A DNA stretch of 64,000 bases from Planctomycetota bacterium (GTDB lineage Bacteria; Planctomycetota; Planctomycetia; Gemmatales; Gemmataceae), in the NCBI GenBank assembly GCA_021413735.1, contig JAIOPV010000081.1:1-64000 (forward strand), given 5' to 3'. A program made the translations under genes and the position numbers. Shown piece after piece: positions 7,898 to 59,538 of this stretch. How positions within the stretch are numbered: the stretch's first letter is position 1; each line of letters begins with the position of its first letter. A model generated the notes under the pieces. The model made no database searches. It was given only the letters and a program-made list of their open reading frames with translations, and had not been told where the DNA came from.

Positions 7898-8950
7898 TCA
7901 CACCAGTTCGGAAGCATATTCCAGTGTCATCGCCTGCCCGAATCGCTCGCGGAGTTTCTTCTCCGCGTCCGATGACAGTCGTGGTTGATCGTACTCCATG
8001 TCTTGCAGGTCGAGCCTACACAGATTCGCGAACGCGGGATTCGTAAGCAGGATGTCCACGTCTTGATCGGTGATGATTGATCCCGTCACGAACAGCGCGT
8101 GCAGGTTGCTCAAATACTGGCACGCCGCGAGGAGGTGGAACGGGATGTTGCCCAGCCAGAGATACAGCAGGCGATTCAACTCGCGTGCCGCGAAAAGCGA
8201 CTCGAATCCGAAATTCGCAGGCTGACTCCCTACAAGGTTCAACTTGTTCAGCCGTGGGAATCGGTCGCTGGCGAGAATCGCCAAGACGCCGGTGGCGGTG
8301 TAGGGAGAGCCATTGGCCATTACCAGTCCGAACCCGCGCAACTGCGGGAGCATCGCCGTATTCGCGAACGTCAACAGGTCGCTGTCCGTGAGATTCGGGC
8401 TGTACAGGGTGAGTTCGCTCAGATGTTGAACATCGGGCGAAGTGGCGAGTTCATTCAGTCCCGCTCCATTGATGTCACCCCCGTACCAAGTGAACCGGGC
8501 AACCCACCGCAGAACCGATGATGCGGCCCGAAGCACTGTTTCTGTGGTCGCGTTGTAGACAATAATGTGTTCGACGCCGACGTGCGCGAAGGCGTCCGCG
8601 AGTCTCATTAGTCCGAATTCGGAGTCGGTGAATTCGCGTGGGTTCCAATACATCACCAACCCGCGATTGAAGACAATTGAATCCAGACGTGTCCCAGGCA
8701 CAGCGGTCAGCGGCGCGAGCCAGTGCGATCGATGCTGTTGGTTTAACCGAGTCGCTTCGGCACTCTGGCAAGGCCAATCGGGGGCCCCCACCGGCGCTCG
8801 CATCATCGCGATCTGAAGACGGATGAATTCCGCTCTCGCTTGGTCGTGTTCGTCGCCGTGTTCCTGCAACCAGTCAGCGAACACCAGCCGTGGCGTATCC
8901 TCGTCCGGGTTCGCGATGATCGCTGCCATCAGCGCACGCCGTTCGTCCAT
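7898..8950 (-). CDS. TIGR02996 domain protein with leucine-rich-like repeats
   Basis: A 350-residue protein. Its first 50 residues match the TIGR02996 repeat-companion domain: ALMAAIIANPDEDTPRLVFA followed by DWLQEHGDEHDQARAEFIRL. The rest contains irregular leucine-rich segments (HLSELTLYSPNL, LNKLNLVGSQ, LYLWLGNIPFHLL, LCRLDLQDMEY), suggesting a solenoid binding surface. Such proteins are abundant in Gemmata relatives; their function is not known. The start is preceded by GTGGAG 11 bases upstream and lies 24 bases after the end of the interrupted LamG gene, so they probably share a transcript. A second member of this family is encoded at 49061-50200, next to type VI secretion genes. No catalytic motif is visible. 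Confidence 0.85.
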   Translation of the reverse strand: MDERRALMAAIIANPDEDTPRLVFADWLQEHGDEHDQARAEFIRLQIAMMRAPVGAPDWPCQSAEATRLNQQHRSHWLAPLTAVPGTRLDSIVFNRGLVMYWNPREFTDSEFGLMRLADAFAHVGVEHIIVYNATTETVLRAASSVLRWVARFTWYGGDINGAGLNELATSPDVQHLSELTLYSPNLTDSDLLTFANTAMLPQLRGFGLVMANGSPYTATGVLAILASDRFPRLNKLNLVGSQPANFGFESLFAARELNRLLYLWLGNIPFHLLAACQYLSNLHALFVTGSIITDQDVDILLTNPAFANLCRLDLQDMEYDQPRLSSDAEKKLRERFGQAMTLEYASELV

Positions 8951-49060: not shown

Positions 49061-50200
49061 TCAATCAATCTGCAACCGATCTCCGAAGTGTTCACGCAAG
49101 GCGGTGAAATCGGGTCGATCAGATACTGAATCCTGAAGGCGGAAGATCAAAACGTTCCTAAACGCTGGAGAGTCGAGGATATGCAACCACTCCGCAGCGG
49201 TTGTGTTACACCCGGTGTACAATCTCAACTCTCGAAGTCGGGGAAACGGATTGCCCGTCAAATCCATCAACTGAGGTGGGTCGCGACCGACAAGAGTCAA
49301 CTTCTCAAGTCGCGGCCAGTCATTCGCAGCGAGTGCGGTGAAAAAAGTGCGCACTGTCAATTCATCTTCATCGTAAAGATTCCATACCGACAAGTTTTTT
49401 AGGCGGTGGGATAGACCCGACTGGACAGCGGCTGCCATAATCCCAAGGACGGCGTTTCGAGGGGCGGTTGGGAAAAAAGAGTTAAGGTTCAGTTCTTCCA
49501 ATCGTGGCGCCGCGGAGAAGAAAGCCGTTAAAGCCTGAGGGTTTGCCAAATCTGGGGGCTCGACAGAAATCTGTCCCACCAGCAACCTTGTTTCTTGCGT
49601 GAGTGCCACGACCCATTCTTCGGGGAACCCGAAAAAGCCCGTGAATTCCCAGTCCGTGAAATTCTGGAAGGTCAATCGGTCACAGAGATCGGGTAACAGG
49701 GCAGGGAGTTCGGACACAGTATCGGATTGCTGTCGGGCGACTTTGACACTTGGACGCGGCTCCGGAACGACGAGGCTGTCAACCGACTGCTTCAATAGCA
49801 CATCGATCGGCGTGCAAATGCGGAATACGAACCCTCGCATAAAATCGATGCGGGGAGTACGGAACGATCCTTCAGTGTCTTCTGTGACAGAGACACGAAG
49901 GTTGGGACTTCGGACATTCGGGTGCGGATGCCAAAGGTGAGGAGACTTTCCATCAAGCACCCAAGCGAAGTGTGTCGTCCAGGCCTCTTTGTGTGCATCG
50001 AGAAGTTCCCTCGCCCGTTGAGCGCCTTTCAGCGCCATCGGGTCACGTGCTGACCGAAGAGAAGCGTCGATCTGCACACGGATGAACTCGGCCCGTTCGG
50101 GCTGTCCGTTCTCCTGAAGCCAGTCGGCGTATACTAGCCGCGGCGTGTCTTCGTGCGGATGCTCCCAGATCGCAGAGAGAAGTGCCTTCTCGTCCGACAT
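49061..50200 (-). CDS. TIGR02996 domain protein with leucine-rich-like repeats, next to T6SS genes
   Basis: A 379-residue protein. The N-terminus SDEKALLSAIWEHPHEDTPR, then LVYADWLQENGQPERAEFIR, is the TIGR02996 domain. Later segments such as LEELNLNSFFPTAPRNAVLG, KNLSVWNLYDEDELTVRTFF, LEKLTLVGRDPPQLMDL and LRELRLYTGC look like irregular leucine-rich repeats, so a solenoid is likely. It lies 30 bases downstream of the TssM-like gene on the same strand and so probably belongs to the type VI operon. The start at 50200 has CGGAG upstream; a codon 24 bases earlier is possible. Whether it serves secretion or is a passenger is unknown. Confidence 0.85.
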   Translation of the reverse strand: MSDEKALLSAIWEHPHEDTPRLVYADWLQENGQPERAEFIRVQIDASLRSARDPMALKGAQRARELLDAHKEAWTTHFAWVLDGKSPHLWHPHPNVRSPNLRVSVTEDTEGSFRTPRIDFMRGFVFRICTPIDVLLKQSVDSLVVPEPRPSVKVARQQSDTVSELPALLPDLCDRLTFQNFTDWEFTGFFGFPEEWVVALTQETRLLVGQISVEPPDLANPQALTAFFSAAPRLEELNLNSFFPTAPRNAVLGIMAAAVQSGLSHRLKNLSVWNLYDEDELTVRTFFTALAANDWPRLEKLTLVGRDPPQLMDLTGNPFPRLRELRLYTGCNTTAAEWLHILDSPAFRNVLIFRLQDSVSDRPDFTALREHFGDRLQID

Positions 50201-50230
50201 CGCTTTGCTCCGATTATCCGACAATGCACC

Positions 50231-51715
50231 TCAATTGCGGGGCCACCACAGCAGTGCGAGACCGAAGACGGCCGCCGTCATGAGGACGATGAACGCATAT
50301 CCGAGAGCGGTTCGTCGGGCTGTCGCCGTCTCTTCGGCACGTCCTGCAGCCGTCCACGCGACGAAATTCTGGCCGTCCTGAAGCTGCGCCAGAACATCCG
50401 TCAGGAAGCCTTGCCGTTCCGGGCCAACGCCGGTTGCAGCGAAGAAGCATCCGCCCGGCAACACGGCCTCATTCTGTTCAGGGGCCAATACCCGCGTGAA
50501 CAGCCGAACAATCGCATCGGTTCGGGCATGGATCGCGACCGCAAGCTGAAACAGTTTCGCGTTCGCGGCCGGTTCGGTGACGGATGGCATCACGCGGTAC
50601 ACGAGTCGCGGCACCAACGTCGTCGTTTGCCAGCGAACCGACTCGACGATCAAGCCCGCACGGTCGGCAACGGATAGTCTCGCGACATACGGCAACTTCC
50701 GCCCGAGGCGTTGTTTGCGGCGAGCTACTGGAACGCGAGCCAGGAACTCGCTGAATCCGGGAATCTGCTCGGCATCGCAGACCACGCCAACGACCGGGCA
50801 CCGAACCTGAAGAACCTCGGCGGCAGTCCGAAGATCCTCGGCCGCGAAGAATCCGGCCTGATTCGCAAGGGCCGGTGAGCGAGTACACGCTTCGGGAATC
50901 AGAACGAGAATCCCGTTCACCGGGCAGAGCGGGCGTCGAGTGCCGCGGATGAGACCGCACAGATGCCGGAATCGGGCCGTGAGCAACGCAATTCGTGCCG
51001 GGTCTTTCGCAAGTGGGACGGCGACTGGTGGCGCGACCTCGGCATCCGGCGGGGCGTCGGCTGCTGCTGCGAGCGTCGGGAACTGGTCGGCGATCGTGTC
51101 GGCAGCCGGATCATCTGCAGGGGCGTCGTCGGCGTCGGCGGTTGCGGATGCCCATCCCGCGAGGCCGCCGAGCAGGGAACATTCATCGGCCGCGACGAAG
51201 AAGGCATCTTTCGAGGCGAACAGTCGGACCGGCGGATCGCCAGCGGCAGCGTACTCGGTCGCTTTCGCACGGGCGGCTTCAAAGAGAGCAGCGTCTCCGC
51301 CGCGTGGTCGCCCAATGATGAGGAACACCGGCAAGCGATCGAAGGGAACGCCGGCACGCTCGGCAGCTTCGACAGCGGCGAACCACGCGGCGTCGATATC
51401 CGGGAACGCCGACGGCCGAGCGACCGGACGGAGAAGCCGCCACAGCCAGATCGCGGCCCACGCATTCGCGTACAAGATCAGTGCGAGGAGCGGGAGCCAG
51501 ACATGGGCAAGCCACTCGGTCGGGGCTTCGATGTAGCGGATGAGATCGAACCGCTGATTCGCCCAGCCGAGAGCAACCAGCACCGCGACGAGAACGATAA
51601 CGTGCAAAGCCCAGAACAGCGTCGAGCGTGCCCCGCGAGCAGACTCGCCGATCGGGATGAGAAGCCCGAAGAACGCGACAACCTTCGACCAGATCCAGCG
51701 GAGAAAGGTGAGCAT
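50231..51715 (-). CDS. tssM: Short TssM/IcmF-like type VI secretion membrane protein
   Basis: A 494-residue protein matching only the N-terminal half of TssM. Two membrane helices (near 35-51 and 73-92) are followed by the cytoplasmic domain, and a third helix lies at 471-490 (GYAFIVLMTAAVFGLALLWW). The TssM signature CPVNGILVLIPEA and VRCPVVGVVCDAEQIPGFSE is clear. The protein ends four residues after the third helix, whereas usual TssM (over 1000 residues) continues into a large periplasmic domain. The nucleotide site is degenerate: GRPRGGDA at 135-142 replaces GxxxxGKT. The downstream frame does not encode the missing part; the next gene is TIGR02996. It would form the inner-membrane channel base with TssL. 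Confidence 0.85.
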   Translation of the reverse strand: MLTFLRWIWSKVVAFFGLLIPIGESARGARSTLFWALHVIVLVAVLVALGWANQRFDLIRYIEAPTEWLAHVWLPLLALILYANAWAAIWLWRLLRPVARPSAFPDIDAAWFAAVEAAERAGVPFDRLPVFLIIGRPRGGDAALFEAARAKATEYAAAGDPPVRLFASKDAFFVAADECSLLGGLAGWASATADADDAPADDPAADTIADQFPTLAAAADAPPDAEVAPPVAVPLAKDPARIALLTARFRHLCGLIRGTRRPLCPVNGILVLIPEACTRSPALANQAGFFAAEDLRTAAEVLQVRCPVVGVVCDAEQIPGFSEFLARVPVARRKQRLGRKLPYVARLSVADRAGLIVESVRWQTTTLVPRLVYRVMPSVTEPAANAKLFQLAVAIHARTDAIVRLFTRVLAPEQNEAVLPGGCFFAATGVGPERQGFLTDVLAQLQDGQNFVAWTAAGRAEETATARRTALGYAFIVLMTAAVFGLALLWWPRN

Positions 51716-51724
51716 GAGTCCGTT

Positions 51725-51822
51725 GTAGGTCAGGCTTTCGAGCCTGACTCTTCGGTGTTGTAGGTCGGACTTTCGAGCCTGACGCTACGGTGTTCGGAGT
51801 CAGGCTCGAAAGCCTGACCTAC
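51725..51822. repeat. Triplicated 26-base repeat with inverted arm (family H)
   Basis: GTAGGTCAGGCTTTCGAGCC starts the copy at 51725-51750, which is the exact reverse complement of 51797-51822. A third, direct copy lies at 51760-51785 with two or three changes. The set sits between tssL and tssM and could fold two alternative hairpins in their shared transcript. Confidence 0.88.
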
Positions 51823-51840
51823 GTTTCAGGGCGAAAACCA

Positions 51841-52476
51841 TCATCGCCCGCCGAGGCTCGACACGAGAATGAACGCTGCGATCGGAATCAAGACAAGCGC
51901 CACCGCGGCCCCCACGCCGAGCATTCGCTCGAATCGGAACTCGGCCCGCCGAGGTGGCGCATCGAATTCGGGGTCGGGTTCGAGGTCGAACGGCGACTCC
52001 GGAACCGGCAACTCACGGAGCGACTCCCGCGTCACATCCGACCATTCGCGGAGCTTGTTCGGATCGTCCGCGAGTGTGCCCCGGAAGCCGAGTTGAGCGC
52101 ACAAGAAGAACACTTCCATCGCATCGACGTCGGCCGCTCCGGATGCGAGCTTCGCCTGATCCCAGAATCGCCACGCACGGTCATTCGTGCCGTACAGTTC
52201 GACTTCCAGTTTCCGCTCGTTCCAGCGATCCCGCCACGTCGGCACCTGAGTGAAGAGTTCATCCACCCAGCACACCAGAGCGTATCTGATACCGAGGAAT
52301 CCGGCAGCGGGTGCGCTCGCCCGACCTGCCGGTTTCGGGCCGATCGTCGCCGTCATGGCCGCAGCCGAGAGAAGTTCCTTGAGCCGTGAGTGTTCCCGCT
52401 CGAACTCGAGTGCCCGCCCGGCGCTGAGTTGTTCGCGAACGCGGAGAGCGCTCGCGAACACCGGGTACGCGAACAT
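51841..52476 (-). CDS. tssL: TssL/DotU type VI secretion protein
   Basis: A 211-residue tail-anchored membrane protein. The cytoplasmic DotU domain shows YALVCWVDELFTQVPTWRDR and the family hallmark DAMEVFFLCAQLGFRGTL. The single membrane helix is at the C-terminus (MLGVGAAVALVLIPIAAFIL), with only a few residues beyond it and no peptidoglycan-binding domain. TssL joins TssM and the baseplate at the inner membrane. The start at 52476 was chosen over a TTG six codons upstream. It is the first gene of the leftward unit tssL-tssM-TIGR02996, divergent from tssK across 105 bases. Confidence 0.9.
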   Translation of the reverse strand: MFAYPVFASALRVREQLSAGRALEFEREHSRLKELLSAAAMTATIGPKPAGRASAPAAGFLGIRYALVCWVDELFTQVPTWRDRWNERKLEVELYGTNDRAWRFWDQAKLASGAADVDAMEVFFLCAQLGFRGTLADDPNKLREWSDVTRESLRELPVPESPFDLEPDPEFDAPPRRAEFRFERMLGVGAAVALVLIPIAAFILVSSLGGR

Positions 52477-52581: not shown

Positions 52582-54033
52582 ATGTCCACTCGCGCGGTCC
52601 ACTGGCACGAAGGGTTGTTCCTTCGGCCCCACCACCTCCAGGCGTCTCACCGCCATACGGAGCATCAATCACGACAACTTGCTGATACGCTCTCCCCATA
52701 TGCCTGGGGTTGCCGCGTCCTCGACATCGACCCGGATGCCCTCGCGAACTGGCGCTTTCAGGTGCGTCGGCTGCGTGCTCGTCTGCCAGACGGAACGGCT
52801 GTCGATATCCCCGAAGACACGGCCCTTCCGCCGCTCGATCTGAAGCCGGGGCTCGAACGCGGTCCCAAACTCACCGTTTACCTCGCCGTTCCGGTGCTGC
52901 AACTCGGACGGCCGAACGCGACCGAGTCTGAAACGGGGTCGGCACTGTCACGATATCGGCTCGATTCTCAGGATCTCGAAGACGAGAACGCAGCCGACGA
53001 CCGGGAAGCTGTCGTCGTTCGCCGCTTGAACGCGCAGTTGCTCACATCGGGCCAGGACTTCGCGGGCTACTCTGTGCTGCCGCTCGCGAAGATCGTGCGA
53101 TCGAGTCGGGCCGACGGCCGCCCTGAGTTCGAGGCAGGGTACATTCCGCCCGTGTTGGGCTGCGACACATGGCCAGCGCTGTCACGGGACATCTTGCAGG
53201 CGATCTACGACCGCGTCGGCACGAAGATCGACGTCCTCGCTGGCCAGGTTCTCGACCGCGGGCTTGCGTTTGAAGGCGGCAATCAGGCCGACGTGATGAT
53301 CGGGGCGCAACTGCGAGCGTTGAACGAGTTGTACGCCCTCCTTGCGGGGCTGGCGTTCACGTCGGGTCTGCATCCGGTGATGGCGTACATCGAACTCTGT
53401 CGCGGCGTGGGTCAGTTGTCGCTGTTCGGGCCGTCTCGTCGACCGCCGCCGCTTCCGCGATACGATCACGACGACATTGGCGGGTCGCTTTACTTCCTGA
53501 AGCGCTCGATCGATTCGCTGCTCGATGTGTTCGTGGAGCCGGACTACAAGAGCCGTCCGTTTGTTGGGGCCGGGCTGCGAATGGAAGTCGCCCTCGAAGC
53601 GGCGTGGGTCGAATCGACGTGGCAGATTTTCATCGCGGTGCAGAGTACGCTGTCGGGCGACGAGTTGATCCGCGTGCTGACGCAACCCGGCGTGCTTGAC
53701 ATGAAGGTCGGCAGTTCCGAGCGAGTCGATGCTGTGTTCCGAGATGGCCGCGAAGGGCTGCGGTTCACGCCGGTTCGGGCTGTCCCGCGAACACTGCCGC
53801 ACCCGACCGGTGTGACGTACTTCCAACTCGCTACGGATGCAACCGCCGCCGAATGGGCAGCCGTGCAGAAGTCGCTATCGCTTGCAGTGCGGTTGAACGA
53901 GAACCTGATCGCGGGAAGCATCCACGGGCAGCGAGACCTGACGGTGCAAGTGGCGGGCAAGACGCCGACGTTGCGGTTCACGCTGTACGTCGTCCCACGA
54001 AAGAGCCTCAGCGCCGGTGATCTGGTGGTGTGA
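52582..54033 (+). CDS. tssK: TssK type VI secretion baseplate protein
   Basis: A 483-residue TssK. The N-terminus RAVHWHEGLFLRPHHLQASH is the strongest family signature. Further blocks are RLPDGTAVDIPEDTALPPLD, GYIPPVLGCDTWPALSRDIL and a C-terminal TYFQLATDATAAEWAAVQKS then FTLYVVPRKSL. TssK connects the phage-like baseplate to the TssL-TssM membrane complex through its C-terminal domain. Length and domain order look normal. It begins the rightward arm, with tssH 148 bases downstream beyond a family D hairpin. Confidence 0.94.
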   Translation: MSTRAVHWHEGLFLRPHHLQASHRHTEHQSRQLADTLSPYAWGCRVLDIDPDALANWRFQVRRLRARLPDGTAVDIPEDTALPPLDLKPGLERGPKLTVYLAVPVLQLGRPNATESETGSALSRYRLDSQDLEDENAADDREAVVVRRLNAQLLTSGQDFAGYSVLPLAKIVRSSRADGRPEFEAGYIPPVLGCDTWPALSRDILQAIYDRVGTKIDVLAGQVLDRGLAFEGGNQADVMIGAQLRALNELYALLAGLAFTSGLHPVMAYIELCRGVGQLSLFGPSRRPPPLPRYDHDDIGGSLYFLKRSIDSLLDVFVEPDYKSRPFVGAGLRMEVALEAAWVESTWQIFIAVQSTLSGDELIRVLTQPGVLDMKVGSSERVDAVFRDGREGLRFTPVRAVPRTLPHPTGVTYFQLATDATAAEWAAVQKSLSLAVRLNENLIAGSIHGQRDLTVQVAGKTPTLRFTLYVVPRKSLSAGDLVV

Positions 54034-54181: not shown

Positions 54182-56830
54182 ATGGCCACGGTCAATCCTC
54201 GTTCGCTTTTCGAGAAACTGAACGGCACTACCAAACGCGCCCTCGAAGGGGCCGCCGGGCTGTGCCTGTCTCGCACGCATTTCCATGTCGAACTCGAACA
54301 CTGGTTGCTGAAACTCACCGAGGCCACGAACAACGATCTCGCCGCGATCTTCAAGCAGTACGACATCGACCCGGCGAAGGTCCGGTCGCAACTCGAAAGT
54401 GCCGCCAACCGATTCAAGACCGGCAACGGTCGCGCTCCGGACCTGTCGCCGGACATCCTCGACACGGTCCGCGAGGCATGGGTGCTTGCGTCGCTGGAAT
54501 ACGGGGCGAGCCGCGTTCGCACTGCCCACCTCCTCGCAGCGTTGCTCACGGACCGCTCGCTTTCGGCACGCACGACAACGGCCATCCCCGAACTCGCGAA
54601 AATTGGTGGCGAACGACTCCAACGGGAACTCAAGGATCTGCTCCCGCGATTCAATTCGGAAGAGAACGAACAGGAAGCCGCTTCCGCCGCCGGTGGAACG
54701 ACTCCGAACGGTCAGCCGGCTCCTGCGGGTTCCTCGAAAACGCCGTCGCTGGATCAGTTCACCGTGAACATGACCGCGAACGCGAAGGCCGGGAAGATCG
54801 ACCCGGTTGTGGGACGCGATGCCGAGATCCGGCAGGTGATCGACATCCTCACCCGTCGCCGGCAGAACAATCCGATTCTGACGGGCGAGGCCGGCGTCGG
54901 CAAAACCGCCGTGGTCGAAGGTCTGGCTCTGCGGATCGCTGCCGGGGATGTGCCGCCACCGTTGAAGAACGTCGATCTGCGGTCGCTCGACCTGGGTTTG
55001 CTTCAAGCCGGCGCAGGGGTGAAGGGCGAGTTCGAGAACCGACTGAAGGCGGTCATTCAAGAGGTCAAGTCGTCGCCGACGCCGGTGATTCTGTTCATCG
55101 ACGAAGCGCACACGATGATCGGGGCAGGGGGGCAAGCCGGGCAGAATGACGCGGCCAATCTGCTGAAGCCGCCGCTGGCTCGTGGCGAACTGCGGACCAT
55201 CGCGGCGACGACGTTCGCTGAGTACAAGAAGTATTTCGAGACCGACGCGGCTCTGAAGCGACGGTTCCAGCTTGTGCGAGTCGAGGAACCGCGTGAAGCG
55301 AACGCCGTGCGAATGCTTCGCGGACTCGTGCCGGTTCTGGAGAAGCACCACAAGGTTCGCGTGATGGACGACGCGATCACCGAGACGGTTCGACTCTCCG
55401 TGCGGTACATGCCTGACCGCCAACTGCCAGACAAGGCCGTGAGTCTTCTTGACACTGTGTGCGGTCGCGTGTCGCTGAGTCAACTCTCGACGCCGCCGGC
55501 TCTCGAAGACTCCAAGCGAGAGATCGAATACCTTACGAACGAGATCAGTTTCTTGGAGCGAGAAGGCCGTGTGTCTGGCGGTGATCCTGAGAAGCTTGCA
55601 GATCGGAAGGCCCGCAAAGTTACCGCTGAGAAGCGAACCGCCGAACTCGAAAAGCAACTCGCCGCAGAGCAGAAAATCGTCGAGCAGATTCACGCGGTTC
55701 GCGACAAGCTCGAAGCGGTCACCGATGCCGTCGCGGGCGATCCCGCAGCGAGCGCCGAACTCACCAAGCTGACGGACGATCTCGCGAAGATTCAGGGCGA
55801 GTCGCCGCTCGTGTATCCGGTTGTCGCGGGGCAAGCGGTCGCGGAAGTGGTCGCCCGACTGACCGGCGTTCCGCTCGGCAAGATGGTTCGCAACGAGATC
55901 GAGACGCTGCTGAATCTGCCGAAACACATGCAGGAGCGGGTCGTCGGTCAGGATCACGCGATGGAAGCGATTGCCGAGCGGATTCGCACCGCTCGCACCG
56001 ACCTCAGTGATCCACGCCGACCGGTGGGCGTATTCCTGCTCGTCGGCCCGTCCGGAGTCGGCAAGACCGAAACGGCGATGGCCCTCGCGGACCTACTCTA
56101 CGGTGGCGACCGCAACATGGTCGTCGTCAACATGAGCGAGTACAAGGAGTCGCACAAAGTTTCTCGCCTCACCGGTTCCGCGAAGGGGTATGTCGGCTAT
56201 GGCGAGGGTGGTGTTCTGACGAACGCGGTGAAGAATCGGCCGTACTCGGTCGTGCTGCTTGATGAGGTCGAGAAGGCGGACGAGTCGGTGCAGGAAATCT
56301 TCTATCAGGTGTTCGACAAGGGCGTGCTACAAAACGACACCGGCGAGGATGTGAACTTCAAGAACACGATCATCCTGCTGACGTCGAACGCGGGCACCGA
56401 CACGATCATGAAGGCGTGTGCCGACCCCGAAACGATGCCCGACGCGAAGGGACTTGCTGAAGTGCTGCGGCCCGATTTGCTGAAGTGGTTCAAGCCCGCG
56501 TTGCTGGGTCGCATGGTGGTGGTGCCGTACTTCCCGCTTCGCGCTGAGGTCTTGAAGCGGATCATCGAACTGCAACTGAAGAAGATCGGCGACCGTCTGC
56601 GGGACAACCACAAGGCGACGTTCGCTTACGATGCGGCCGTCGTGGACACGATTCTGGCACGCTGCACGGAGGTCGAGAGCGGGGCGCGGAACGTTGACCA
56701 CATCATTACTGGGACGGTGCTGCCCGCGATTTCGGACGAGATCCTGACTCGTATGGCAGAGGGCAAGACCGTGAAGTCGGTGAAGGTTGGCGTCGGCGAG
56801 GAAGGCAAGTTCACGTTCACCATTGAGTGA
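54182..56830 (+). CDS. tssH: TssH/ClpV type VI secretion ATPase
   Basis: An 882-residue Hsp100/Clp ATPase that disassembles the contracted TssBC sheath. The N-domain spans about 1-155 ([17 protein letters not shown] is typical of ClpV). The first ATPase has Walker A GEAGVGKT at 235-242 and Walker [15 protein letters not shown] coiled middle region lies near 445-530 ([20 protein letters not shown]). The second ATPase has Walker A GPSGVGKT at 622-629 and Walker [11 protein letters not shown]. ClpB is the alternative, but the N-domain and the tssK neighbour favour ClpV. Length is normal. Convergent with the HEAT-like gene downstream. Confidence 0.94.
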
Positions 56831-56993: not shown

Positions 56994-58061
56994 TCAGTTC
57001 CCTGCACCCCTCGACCCGACAACACTCTTCCACAGGTCGGTGACGGTTCCTGCCGTGCGGGCGCGGGGACCGGGCTTTGCCTGCGTCGCAGTCGGCTCGG
57101 CTGCCTGCGACTTCGCGGGCGTCGGGGTGGTGGCCACCGGCGCTGGCGTCGCACCCATCGGCACGGTCGCCCCTCGCAGCGGGTCGGTGAACGCTCCAAT
57201 CAAGTGGTTGTTTTCGGCGGTGAGCTGGCGATACGCTAGCGCCGAGATGTTGACCCCGCGATTCACTGCGATGCGGGCGTCACGGATCAAGTCTGTCGGC
57301 GGATCGACCGCGACCGCATCATAGTAAGGGCACGGCCCAGCCGCGGATTCCTTTTCTTTCTCCTTCGGAGTCGCCTTCTCCGGCGGCTTCACCGGCTCCT
57401 GATACGTCGCCACACACACCTGCAACGCCGCATACGCCAGCGCTCGCACACACTCCGAGTTTTCCGACGGGAACCCATCTTTCGTTCCGCCGTTCACGGA
57501 CATCGTCAGAGCCGCGATCGTCTTCTTCGAGCAGCAGCAACCGTTTGCGAACGCTTTCGCGGCCTCGATGCGGACGCACTCGCTCGGGTCGCCACGCAGC
57601 GCCGAAATCAGGGCAGGCTCGGCTTCCGGGTAGTATTTGCAACTCACCGTGCCGAGGTATCGCACTGCCGCTCGGCGAGCAGCCGCGTTCGCTTCGTCCT
57701 GCTTGATCCGGGCTGCCGCCCCTTCGGCGCTCGTGGCAGGCTTGGCGAGATCCGCAGGACTTGGTCCGCTACACGTTGGTCCAATCAAGCCGCCGGTCAC
57801 CGCTCCGAGCGGGCTGAGCATCGAGTTGACCACCTTCCCAATCGCCGAGTTGCAGAACTTCGCCTTACACGCCGCCTTTTGGTCGGGCGTCATGCAGAAC
57901 ATGGAAAAGATGTTCCGCGGAGCCGCTGCCCCTGGAGTGGCAACTGAAGGTGTGATCGGCGGCGCCACAGGAACCGGAGCCGATGGGACCGATGGGAACT
58001 GCCCATACGCAACGAAGGTGAGCCCCGCGAACACGACGATGACCGTCCCGAATTTTCGCAT
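56994..58061 (-). CDS. Secreted cysteine-containing HEAT-repeat-like protein
   Basis: A 355-residue protein with a signal peptide (FGTVIVVFAGLTFVAYGQ), then a proline/alanine-rich linker. A cysteine-bearing stretch (FCMTPDQKAACKAKFCNSAI) precedes helical repeats resembling HEAT or PBS-lyase units: AAARRAAVRYLGTVSCKYYP, EPALISALRGDPSECVRIEA and AKAFANGCCCSKKTIAALTM, then SECVRALAYAALQVCVA. The C-terminal 70 residues are Ala/Pro/Thr-rich. The function is unknown; HEAT-type solenoids usually bind proteins. The start at 58061 follows a GGAGG site. The gene is divergent from the porin-like gene across 97 bases, and the two may be co-regulated. Confidence 0.75.
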   Translation of the reverse strand: MRKFGTVIVVFAGLTFVAYGQFPSVPSAPVPVAPPITPSVATPGAAAPRNIFSMFCMTPDQKAACKAKFCNSAIGKVVNSMLSPLGAVTGGLIGPTCSGPSPADLAKPATSAEGAAARIKQDEANAAARRAAVRYLGTVSCKYYPEAEPALISALRGDPSECVRIEAAKAFANGCCCSKKTIAALTMSVNGGTKDGFPSENSECVRALAYAALQVCVATYQEPVKPPEKATPKEKEKESAAGPCPYYDAVAVDPPTDLIRDARIAVNRGVNISALAYRQLTAENNHLIGAFTDPLRGATVPMGATPAPVATTPTPAKSQAAEPTATQAKPGPRARTAGTVTDLWKSVVGSRGAGN

Positions 58062-58158
58062 CGGACCCCCTCCAGAAGTCATCTTTCCCCGGTCGGGCAG
58101 ATACGCTATGAGCCCCCAGAACTCAAGACGAAAGTGCGGATCACGAAGGGTGCGCGGA

Positions 58159-59538
58159 ATGACCGCCCGGTTCTACATTGGGCTCGTCGGCGTGATTGCC
58201 GTGTGCGTCGGACTGACGCTCACGGTCGCGGCCCAAGGTCCGCCAACCCCGATTCCAATTCCGATCCCGGAGCCAATGGCGGCCGACAAATCGAGTGTGC
58301 GCGACGCCCTCAAAGCCGTTCGGACCGGACTTGAATTGCCAGAGGTGTCCACCCCACCAGCCGAACTCCCGCAGAGCTTGCCAGCCCCGACGCCACTGCC
58401 AGTTGCCCCAAGCCCCGTTCCTGTTCCTGTTCCTGTTCCTGTTCCTGTGCCAGTTCCAGCTCTCCCGCCCCTTCAGGTTGGCGGACTGACGGTTGACGGA
58501 CAGCAGATCGATCTCTCGATGTTCCGGAACCGGCTTGGAGGCGGCTGTTCGACCTGCGGGCACGACGACTGCGAAACCTGTGGCGGCTCACGCCACTGTT
58601 CGCCCGGTCGCAAGGCGTGCGAGCCGTTCCCGGCGAGGAACCGCTTCGAGCGTTTGATCGGCGTGATGTACGAAACCCTCTGCTGCCCGGACCCTTGCTA
58701 CGATCCGAAATGGAACATCCTCGCGGATTCGGCGTTCTTCACTCCTGGGGCTCGCCCGGTATCGCAAAGCCGCTTCCGTTGGGATGCTGGCCCCGGTGTC
58801 ATTCTGCCGGACCGAGCTGAATACTTCTGGGCACGCGCCGACGGCATGGGCCTGGGTCCGCGACCGACTTCCCCGAACAAGGTCGCCCGCAGCGTCGATT
58901 ACAACGACCTCAGCATGTACACGGAAACGTCCGTCAACGGATCGTTATCGCTGATCTTCGACCTGACTTACCGAAGCAACGAGGCCACCGGCTCATCGTC
59001 GGCATCCGGCATCGGCGACATGGTCACCGGTACCAAGGCTCTCATGTTCGACCGCGAACTCGTCCAGCTCTCGTTCCAGTTCCTGACGTACCTGCCGACG
59101 GGTTCCTCCTTCAAGGGAACGGGAACCGGGCACGTCGCGCTGGAACCGTCGATCATTGCGGGCCTGAAGATCTCGAACGATACCTTCCTCCAGGCTCAAA
59201 TCGCGGACCGGATTCCGCTCGGCGGCACGCCGGGGTACGCGGGCACGGTGCTGGCTTACAACATGAGCTTGAACCACATCCTGTGGCGGCCAGTGCGAGA
59301 CGTGCAACTGATCGGCGTGTGTGAACTCAACGGGTTGATGTTCCTGAACGGCTCGTACACCGATCCGGTGCTGGGGCCGAATCAACCAGCCTCCGGGATG
59401 ACCTATGTATCGCTCGGACCGGGCATGAGGCTGAACATCTGCGACAAATGCGACTTCGGAGTCGGGACGTCCATTGCTCTGACCGATCCACGCTTCGCGA
59501 CCGCCGTGATCCGCACCGAGTTCCGTTACCGATATTAG
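58159..59538 (+). CDS. Porin-like outer membrane protein with Cys-rich N-terminal region
   Basis: A 459-residue exported protein. The signal peptide YIGLVGVIAVCVGLTLTVAA is followed by a PIPIPIPEP segment, a run of Val-Pro repeats, and a cysteine-rich stretch (GGGCSTCGHDDCETCGG). The C-terminal 270 residues look like a transmembrane beta-barrel: alternating strands such as GSLSLIFDLTYRSNEATG, DRELVQLSFQFLTYLPTGSS, LQAQIADRIPLGG and GVGTSIALTDPRFATAVIRT, ending RTEFRYRY with a terminal aromatic residue, as expected for outer membrane proteins. The gene layout suggests a divergent pair with the HEAT-like gene. The substrate is unknown. A long open frame upstream of 58159 is a shadow of the divergent gene. 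Confidence 0.75.
   Translation: MTARFYIGLVGVIAVCVGLTLTVAAQGPPTPIPIPIPEPMAADKSSVRDALKAVRTGLELPEVSTPPAELPQSLPAPTPLPVAPSPVPVPVPVPVPVPVPALPPLQVGGLTVDGQQIDLSMFRNRLGGGCSTCGHDDCETCGGSRHCSPGRKACEPFPARNRFERLIGVMYETLCCPDPCYDPKWNILADSAFFTPGARPVSQSRFRWDAGPGVILPDRAEYFWARADGMGLGPRPTSPNKVARSVDYNDLSMYTETSVNGSLSLIFDLTYRSNEATGSSSASGIGDMVTGTKALMFDRELVQLSFQFLTYLPTGSSFKGTGTGHVALEPSIIAGLKISNDTFLQAQIADRIPLGGTPGYAGTVLAYNMSLNHILWRPVRDVQLIGVCELNGLMFLNGSYTDPVLGPNQPASGMTYVSLGPGMRLNICDKCDFGVGTSIALTDPRFATAVIRTEFRYRY
58417..58458 (+). repeat. Hexanucleotide microsatellite coding for Val-Pro
   Basis: Five perfect GTTCCT units followed by GTGCCA and GTTCCA, all in frame and coding for Val-Pro. Length changes by slippage would keep the frame and alter the spacer between signal peptide and barrel. 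Confidence 0.9.

Follow-up and report, generated by a model that had tools for sequence, protein, structure and literature searches.

In the best-studied type of the type VI secretion system (T6SS), the periplasmic domain of TssM is regarded as the core of the channel. Here we consider a T6SS cluster of a Planctomycetota bacterium of the family Gemmataceae, partly contained in the first 64,000 nucleotides of contig JAIOPV010000081.1 (assembly GCA_021413735.1; this whole stretch is hereafter the window), whose TssM ends right after its third membrane helix and which also encodes two paralogous proteins of about 1600 amino acids (aa), named BigA and BigB here. Two described membrane complexes bear on it beside the TssJ-TssL-TssM (type i) complex. 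In the type iii system of Bacteroidota, TssN-TssQ-TssO-TssP-TssR, the periplasmic scaffold is made up of separate proteins, of which three have one N-terminal helix each; TssP has PKD-like domains, TssR has a VWA-like domain, and both are required in the complex (PMC10781749). The T6SS membrane complex of Acinetobacter lacks TssJ and is reported to recruit lineage-specific envelope proteins (PMC10564176). For planctomycetes, a T6SS (Boyer 2009; PMC2660368) and T6SS-related genes (PMC5394234) are recorded in Rhodopirellula baltica. No description of a planctomycete T6SS membrane complex was found in the literature searched, which leaves many subscription papers uncovered; the available parts of PMC4793230, PMC8999054 and PMC3482391 contain nothing on it.

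The present locus resembles type i in having TssL (DotU), the cytoplasmic domain and helices of TssM, TssK, H, A, B, C, E, F and G, Hcp and VgrG. Unlike type i, it shows no TssM periplasmic domain, no detectable TssJ and no Walker A motif, and its cluster adds a predicted barrel and a pair of giant single-pass proteins. With type iii it would share the use of separate scaffold proteins, the Ig-like domains of BigA and the VWA domain of BigB standing against the PKD-like domains of TssP and the VWA-like domain of TssR. However, type iii is devoid of TssJ, TssL and TssM, whereas TssL and TssM are present here; moreover, TssR is a lipoprotein, and the available part of the type iii description mentions no caspase fold (PMC10781749). 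The family scans of BigA and BigB listed none of the TssNQOPR families, homology not having been tested further. The Bacteroidota complex is the closest parallel to this system, and we claim no common ancestry. As in Acinetobacter, where TssJ is absent, TssJ goes undetected here and lineage-specific envelope proteins are present; in contrast, Acinetobacter TssM is reported to gain a new homo-oligomerization domain, whereas here the periplasmic part is absent (PMC10564176).

TssM ends at its third membrane helix

The tssM reading frame is intact (494 aa), and the Pfam domain IcmF-related_N covers residues 247-428 of its product (E=1.2e-14; 54.7 bits against a cut-off of 25), placed between helices 2 and 3. 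Hydropathy locates the helices at residues 32-50, 72-90 and 471-489; residues 2-20 exceed the threshold too, though with a weaker signal. The tail after helix 3 comprises five residues, followed by TGA. In a profile-profile comparison with six full-length planctomycete TssM proteins, the window TssM aligned with a probability of 99.3 (E=4.1e-20) to profile positions 94-447, ending where helix 3 starts, with nothing beyond. The protein is therefore a genuine TssM cytoplasmic half. The large periplasmic C-terminal region (IcmF-related, IcmF_C) was not found in it; against the NCBIfam TssM equivalog TIGR03348 only its N-terminal part aligns (30.2 bits against a cut-off of 388.15), and solved structures searched with the TssM profile gave nothing meaningful. 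The preliminary description of this DNA, made from the sequence without database searches, is thereby borne out in the TssM cytoplasmic signature, the three-helix layout and the stop right after helix 3, except that it counted four residues in the tail. It also pointed to TssL as tail-anchored and without a peptidoglycan-binding domain. We likewise found no such domain in TssL, but as a distinctive sign this fails, given that TssL has 223-246 aa in six planctomycete loci with full-length TssM.

No homopolymer run of at least six occurs in tssM or the 150 nucleotides (nt) downstream of it, and the gene directly downstream (49061-50224) encodes an unrelated TIGR02996 protein. Neither a second IcmF-related_N match nor a match to a profile of the TssM periplasmic part exists in the genome, whose assembly is 95.7% complete.

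Short TssM across the phylum

IcmF-related_N matched in 83 of 392 genomes of the phylum, which we divided by class, the 'same class' being GTDB Planctomycetia, to judge by names that include Blastopirellula, Thalassoglobus, Singulisphaera and Gemmataceae. The TssM open frames of the 16 same-class genomes with a Pfam match are 517-611 aa long, whereas 61 of the 67 genomes of other classes have at least one TssM frame of at least 1000 aa (the exceptions being G197, G230, G268, G271, G282 and G288, with contig ends not checked). The comparison of tssM lengths across planctomycete genomes, proposed in the preliminary description, largely separates the class from the others, and the full-length TssM it had considered for close relatives was not seen in those read. 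A profile made from the 16 short proteins matched 126 of 297 same-class genomes; the longest frame among the matches listed has 962 aa (G488). The TssM open reading frame (ORF) of this genome, as read in locus L062 (956 aa), ends three residues past the last helix, and hence its extra length is not C-terminal.

The end point is nearly uniform. We read 78 TssM ORFs at this locus and related ones: 76 stop 0-43 residues past the last helix, 75 within 22 residues of it, and the remaining two are N-terminal fragments of 202 aa, each accompanied by a complete tssM. In this set some loci are one sequence twice (e.g., L040/L087, L042/L097, L066/L073) and several ORFs are incomplete at the 5' end; 51 of the ORFs represent 48 loci of a set of 49, in which L119 gave no TssM ORF. 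These loci are mostly from Planctomycetes, but L071 (Bacteroidales) and L082 (Alphaproteobacteria) carry labels that do not agree with this, and L072 (Kuenenia) that of another planctomycete group. The shared end point argues that the short TssM is not an artefact: both here and in almost every relative read, the protein is a true TssM cytoplasmic domain that stops at helix 3. Each of the two fragments (L112, 6034-6642; L115, 5984-6592) has tssL and bigA next to it, as well as the complete tssM and tssK, and possibly represents a split or duplicated TssM.

Between the P-loop region and the IcmF domain (alignment columns about 226-440), the short proteins have a linker of low complexity, frequently rich in Pro/Ala and differing greatly in length, at a position corresponding to the Walker B region of full-length TssM. 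The degenerate P-loop reported in the preliminary description is real and general, the Walker A motif GxxxxGK[ST] occurring in 0 of 66 non-redundant short TssM proteins; in loci with full-length TssM, 28 of 30 contain an ORF with this motif and a DTAGR-like motif. Judged by these motifs, the loss of Walker A suggests that the hub no longer uses nucleotide.

Components of the type i complex that were not detected

TssJ (PF12790) was found in none of 47 same-class genomes with TssM (a subset of the 126 that includes the present genome) and in 13 of 26 genomes of other classes (a subset of the 67). IcmF_C (PF06744) was likewise found above the cut-off in 0 of the 47, with three weak matches below it. 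PF06744 is itself a weak detector in this phylum (1/6, sub-threshold), and a profile of planctomycete TssM periplasmic parts was therefore used as well. This profile matched 0 of the 47 as against 10 of the 26, six of these ten being sources of the profile; since it thus found just 4 of 20 independent genomes, its zeros are moderately strong at most. A separately encoded periplasmic part, considered in the preliminary description, accordingly gains no support from this profile, from the search of the present genome, or from BigA and BigB, which lack similarity to the periplasmic part.

Association of BigA and BigB with short TssM

Presence of BigA follows that of short TssM. The samples for both were taken as one identical set of 297 same-class genomes, in which BigA is found at E<=1e-14 in 102 of the 126 genomes with TssM and in 1 of the 171 without it, this last (G415) on a contig of 4332 bases. 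Leaving out seven genomes that were sources of the profile, the former count is 95 of 119; relatedness among the genomes means that they are not independent. Relaxing the threshold to 1e-5 gives 120 of 126 versus 54 of 171, because generic caspase-like proteins match too. Within the genus of the present organism, among the matches listed, BigA occurs at E<=1e-11 in eight of nine genomes with TssM and in none of eight without it. The 67 TssM-bearing genomes of other classes gave no BigA match better than 2.3e-10, and ten of them matched at 1e-5. BigB was examined in 40 of the 47 genomes with TssM and in 40 listed without a TssM match, 20 from the search with the short-TssM profile and 20 from that with IcmF-related_N: it is present at E<=1.2e-40 in 39 of the former (21 of 22 once the 18 sources of the profile are set aside), and the best match in the latter has E=5.1e-19, to the caspase-like part of an ORF of 1137 aa.

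Gene order points the same way. In eight fetched loci (L037, L039, L040, L044, L048, L049, L063, L067), tssM lies directly between bigA and bigB, and in the present genome the likely GTG start of bigA overlaps the stop of tssA by 4 nt. A congener (G521) carries tssM, L, K, H, omp, bigA, bigB, tssA, B, C, hcp, impE, E, F, G and vgrG in one run. A Big gene is within the fetched stretch in 29 of 67 non-redundant tssM loci, and in 18 of the 37 with at least 6 kilobases (kb) on both sides. Away from tssM, the pair stands beside hcp and vgrG (G381) or vgrG (G121), and in G087 BigB alone sits inside a tssC-H run. Six of the genomes examined for BigB have two tssM genes among the matches listed, and four of them (G393, G524, G539, G487) have two BigB. 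By gene linkage and co-occurrence, BigA and BigB belong to the T6SS.

Domain architecture of BigA and BigB

The profiles of BigA and BigB align over the tail, the helix and the first ~400 residues with a probability of 99.8 in a profile-profile comparison, by which the two are paralogues. Members of the family have a short cytoplasmic tail and one N-terminal helix with a mostly positive N-terminal flank, followed by about 1400-1710 residues; this layout predicts an N-in topology with ~1500 residues in the periplasm. The model of BigB (predicted local distance difference test score, pLDDT, of 85.1) has a caspase fold and a long run of helices, then a beta part and a VWA domain. Its residues 43-290 match MALT1 (Z 18.6, root-mean-square deviation, rmsd, 3.3, 213 residues aligned), and the NCBIfam caspase family NF047832 matches BigB below the cut-off (E=5.1e-5). 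Pfam VWA_2 is found in 19 of 25 BigB fragments, and VWA chains are the best matches of the BigB profile among solved structures. For BigA, the caspase fold is indicated solely by the profile similarity to the N-terminal part of BigB. A model of its residues 430-1629 (pLDDT 82.9) is helical over about 520 residues, after which come beta-domains in a chain, the last being of the CarboxypepD_reg type. Foldseek retrieved ciliary central-pair proteins, complement C5 and other beta-domain chains for it, and VIA-align retrieved UafA/SdrD-type domains (best Z 12.0, rmsd 11.2), matches to a model which we read only as a chain of immunoglobulin (Ig)-like domains. TssM and TssJ are not among the listed structural matches, an absence that shows nothing by itself. 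As remote homologues of the TssM periplasmic domain, BigA and BigB were rejected with hhalign probabilities of 0.1 and 0.0.

The motif expected around the catalytic cysteine of caspase-fold peptidases (C14) is D-x-C. At this place BigB of the present genome has D-A-T and BigA has D-L-A, the His-Cys dyad not being found in either; a Cys at or adjoining the catalytic place is seen in 6 of 26 BigB rows and 1 of 31 BigA rows. In both seven-row alignments, invariant columns reach the C-terminal domain (residues 1592 and 1595). Of 49 distinct cytoplasmic tails of the two families, 39 contain a W[RK] pair; 2000 shuffles gave 17 on average and 29 at most, and of 810 other proteins from the same loci, 75 have the pair within their first 50 residues. 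This makes it a candidate docking motif. In two loci bigA is read as two consecutive ORFs (L080, 11793-16559, 879+707 aa; L081, 13290-18014, 877+682 aa), perhaps a natural split of the gene.

The remainder of the cluster

The cluster extends past the window (Table 1). Beyond bigA, the same contig carries tssA, bigB, tssB, tssC, hcp, an impE-like gene, tssE, tssF, tssG and vgrG. TssA, TssB, TssC, TssF, TssG and VgrG pass the NCBIfam cut-offs, Hcp falls slightly under its own (55.9 bits versus 58.9) and TssE is recognised by GPW_gp25; the T6SS core set of TssA, B, C, Hcp, VgrG, TssE, F, G, K and H is thus all present. The gene of the predicted barrel protein lies between tssH and bigA; its product has a signal-peptide-like start by eye and ends in ...RTEFRYRY. 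A scan of 103 fetched loci found the barrel family in 13, of which 12 are distinct. Its gene is near tssK, tssH or tssM in all of these except L065, where it adjoins bigB, and the C-terminal residue is F or Y in 12 of the 13. The HEAT-repeat protein has an export-signal-like N-terminus by eye and is encoded on the strand opposite to tssH and the barrel gene. Four proteins (w11-w14) encoded after vgrG on the same contig (81169-84633; L034, L035), and also after vgrG in G521, are possibly products of effector, adaptor or immunity genes. The proteins encoded at 7898-8950 and 49061-50224 have N-termini alike by eye, TIGR02996 being scored for the second only.

Table 1. Features of the T6SS cluster in the window and its continuation on the contig.
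Feature	Position	Strand	Evidence and remarks
tssM, short form, 494 aa	50231..51715	-	N-terminal helices, degenerate P-loop region, IcmF-related_N, helix 3, five-residue tail
TssM helix 3, residues 471-489	50249..50305	-	hydropathy; stop codon TGA at 50231-50233
tssL (DotU family), 217 aa, C-terminal helix	51841..52494; alternative ATG 52476	-	Pfam DotU E=6e-18
tssK, baseplate-membrane connector	52582..54033	+	TIGR03353 E=8.7e-84
tssH / ClpV	54182..56830	+	TIGR03345 1229.3 bits, cut-off 884.95
HEAT-repeat protein	56994..58082	-	HEAT_2 E=1.7e-6; between tssH and barrel gene
predicted outer-membrane beta-barrel protein	58159..59538	+	PF13557 E=9.6e-4, below cut-off
bigA, 1629 aa	59913..64802, window end 64000 inside	-	predicted N-in single helix, pseudocaspase, helical region, Ig-like chain
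bigB	66021-70973, same contig, outside window	+	paralogue of bigA

A putative alternative trans-envelope complex

We consider it probable that the inner-membrane hub of this T6SS is joined to a different trans-envelope complex, formed by TssL, the short TssM, BigA, BigB and perhaps the barrel protein. That a protein other than TssM spans the periplasm had been raised in the preliminary description, and it is favoured by a giant single-pass pair that co-occurs with, and often adjoins, the short TssM; we infer the spanning itself, as well as the docking by the Big tails and the part played by the barrel. TssL and short TssM would dock the TssK baseplate from the cytoplasmic side, and BigA and BigB, each predicted to cross the membrane once, may bind the TssL-TssM-TssK hub through the W-R motifs of their tails. 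The two would then build a periplasmic scaffold, with the pseudocaspase domains at the membrane and the helical regions above, from which the Ig-like rod of BigA and the VWA domain of BigB would reach towards the outer membrane, where the beta-barrel protein might take the anchoring place of TssJ. The more specific proposal that this constitutes a new T6SS type of Planctomycetia, with a minimal TssL-TssM hub carrying a channel made of two giant pseudocaspase paralogues, and the barrel replacing TssJ, seems to us slightly better than an even bet. The earlier suggestion of a variant suited to planctomycete envelopes is too broad, since full-length TssM is retained in other classes of the phylum, where TssJ was found in half of the genomes tested.

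Several observations weigh against the Big pair being the spanning element. No local Big gene is present in 19 of the 37 non-redundant tssM loci with flanks of at least 6 kb, and no T6SS gene is annotated in the 20 kb around the pair in G426, G410, G638, G494 and G557. Moreover, 24 of the 126 genomes with TssM lack a BigA match at 1e-14, although in one of these (G361) a divergent pair is present when read directly (L048). Of the genomes with two tssM genes, G400 has one strong BigB and G488 none; the genome searches gave neither BigA nor BigB for the latter, in which only a BigA-like protein of 730 aa was seen at a locus read. In addition, 22 of the 40 genomes without TssM match the BigB profile weakly, almost always in its caspase-like part; one such match (G404), with E=2.0e-15, lies in an ORF of 1576 aa that was not read. 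Finally, BigA and BigB have no detectable homology to the TssM periplasmic domain, and the predicted template-modelling score (pTM) of the BigA model, 0.53, leaves its overall shape not fixed. The 730-aa protein of G488 (L061, 6313-8505) has a single helix and the same kind of tail, and is encoded directly after one of the two tssM genes.

Caspase-fold and VWA domains often serve in signalling or binding. Given this, the VWA domain in 19 of 25 BigB fragments and the five stretches in which the pair is unlinked from annotated T6SS genes, BigA and BigB could instead be envelope-embedded sensors or assembly regulators of a T6SS whose tube crosses the periplasm without a stable scaffold. We regard this as rather unlikely, in view of the close co-occurrence with tssM, its position between both genes in eight loci and the 4-nt overlap of bigA and tssA; also, the Bacteroidota membrane complex requires both a VWA protein and a PKD-domain protein (PMC10781749). 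It is quite improbable that another protein, such as the barrel or an unlinked periplasmic one, spans the envelope with the Big pair as an accessory: the predicted barrel, with its signal-peptide-like start, does occur in fetched T6SS loci, but in just 13 of the 103 scanned, no systematic screen having been made for other families that track tssM.

Still less credible are BigA and BigB as secreted effectors or adaptors, as their placement near vgrG or hcp in L053, L054, L057, L058 and L069 might suggest; the single N-terminal helix with its mostly positive inside flank is family-wide, the invariant columns extend up to the C-terminal domain, unlike a variable toxin end, and two BigB accompany two tssM genes in four of the six genomes that have them among the matches listed. 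As for a TssM truncated by mutation or assembly error, or one needing frameshifting as in Citrobacter rodentium, the reported precedent is a frameshift at a run of 11 A in tssM (PMC4256274). Here the relatives' common end point, the absence of homopolymer runs of six or more and the lack of any periplasmic match elsewhere in the genome lead us to reject an assembly error, a frameshift or a pseudogene, and with them the hidden remainder just past 50231 that the preliminary description had allowed for; we give this explanation next to no weight.

Implications

Where a class has a T6SS with no more than the cytoplasmic half of TssM, the docking function of this protein is set apart from its spanning function. 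Candidate genes for the missing half are now named, including in Thalassoglobus neptunius KOR42 (L087) and Singulisphaera sp. GP187 (L073), two strains in which bigA and bigB both adjoin tssM. The other planctomycete classes, with full-length TssM, and a TssJ match in half of the genomes tested, offer a natural comparison inside one phylum, and the parallel to the Bacteroidota complex, with PKD and VWA domains in separate subunits, becomes testable. If the proposed complex is real, it would represent a further independent way across the periplasm, beside TssJLM and the complex of Bacteroidota.
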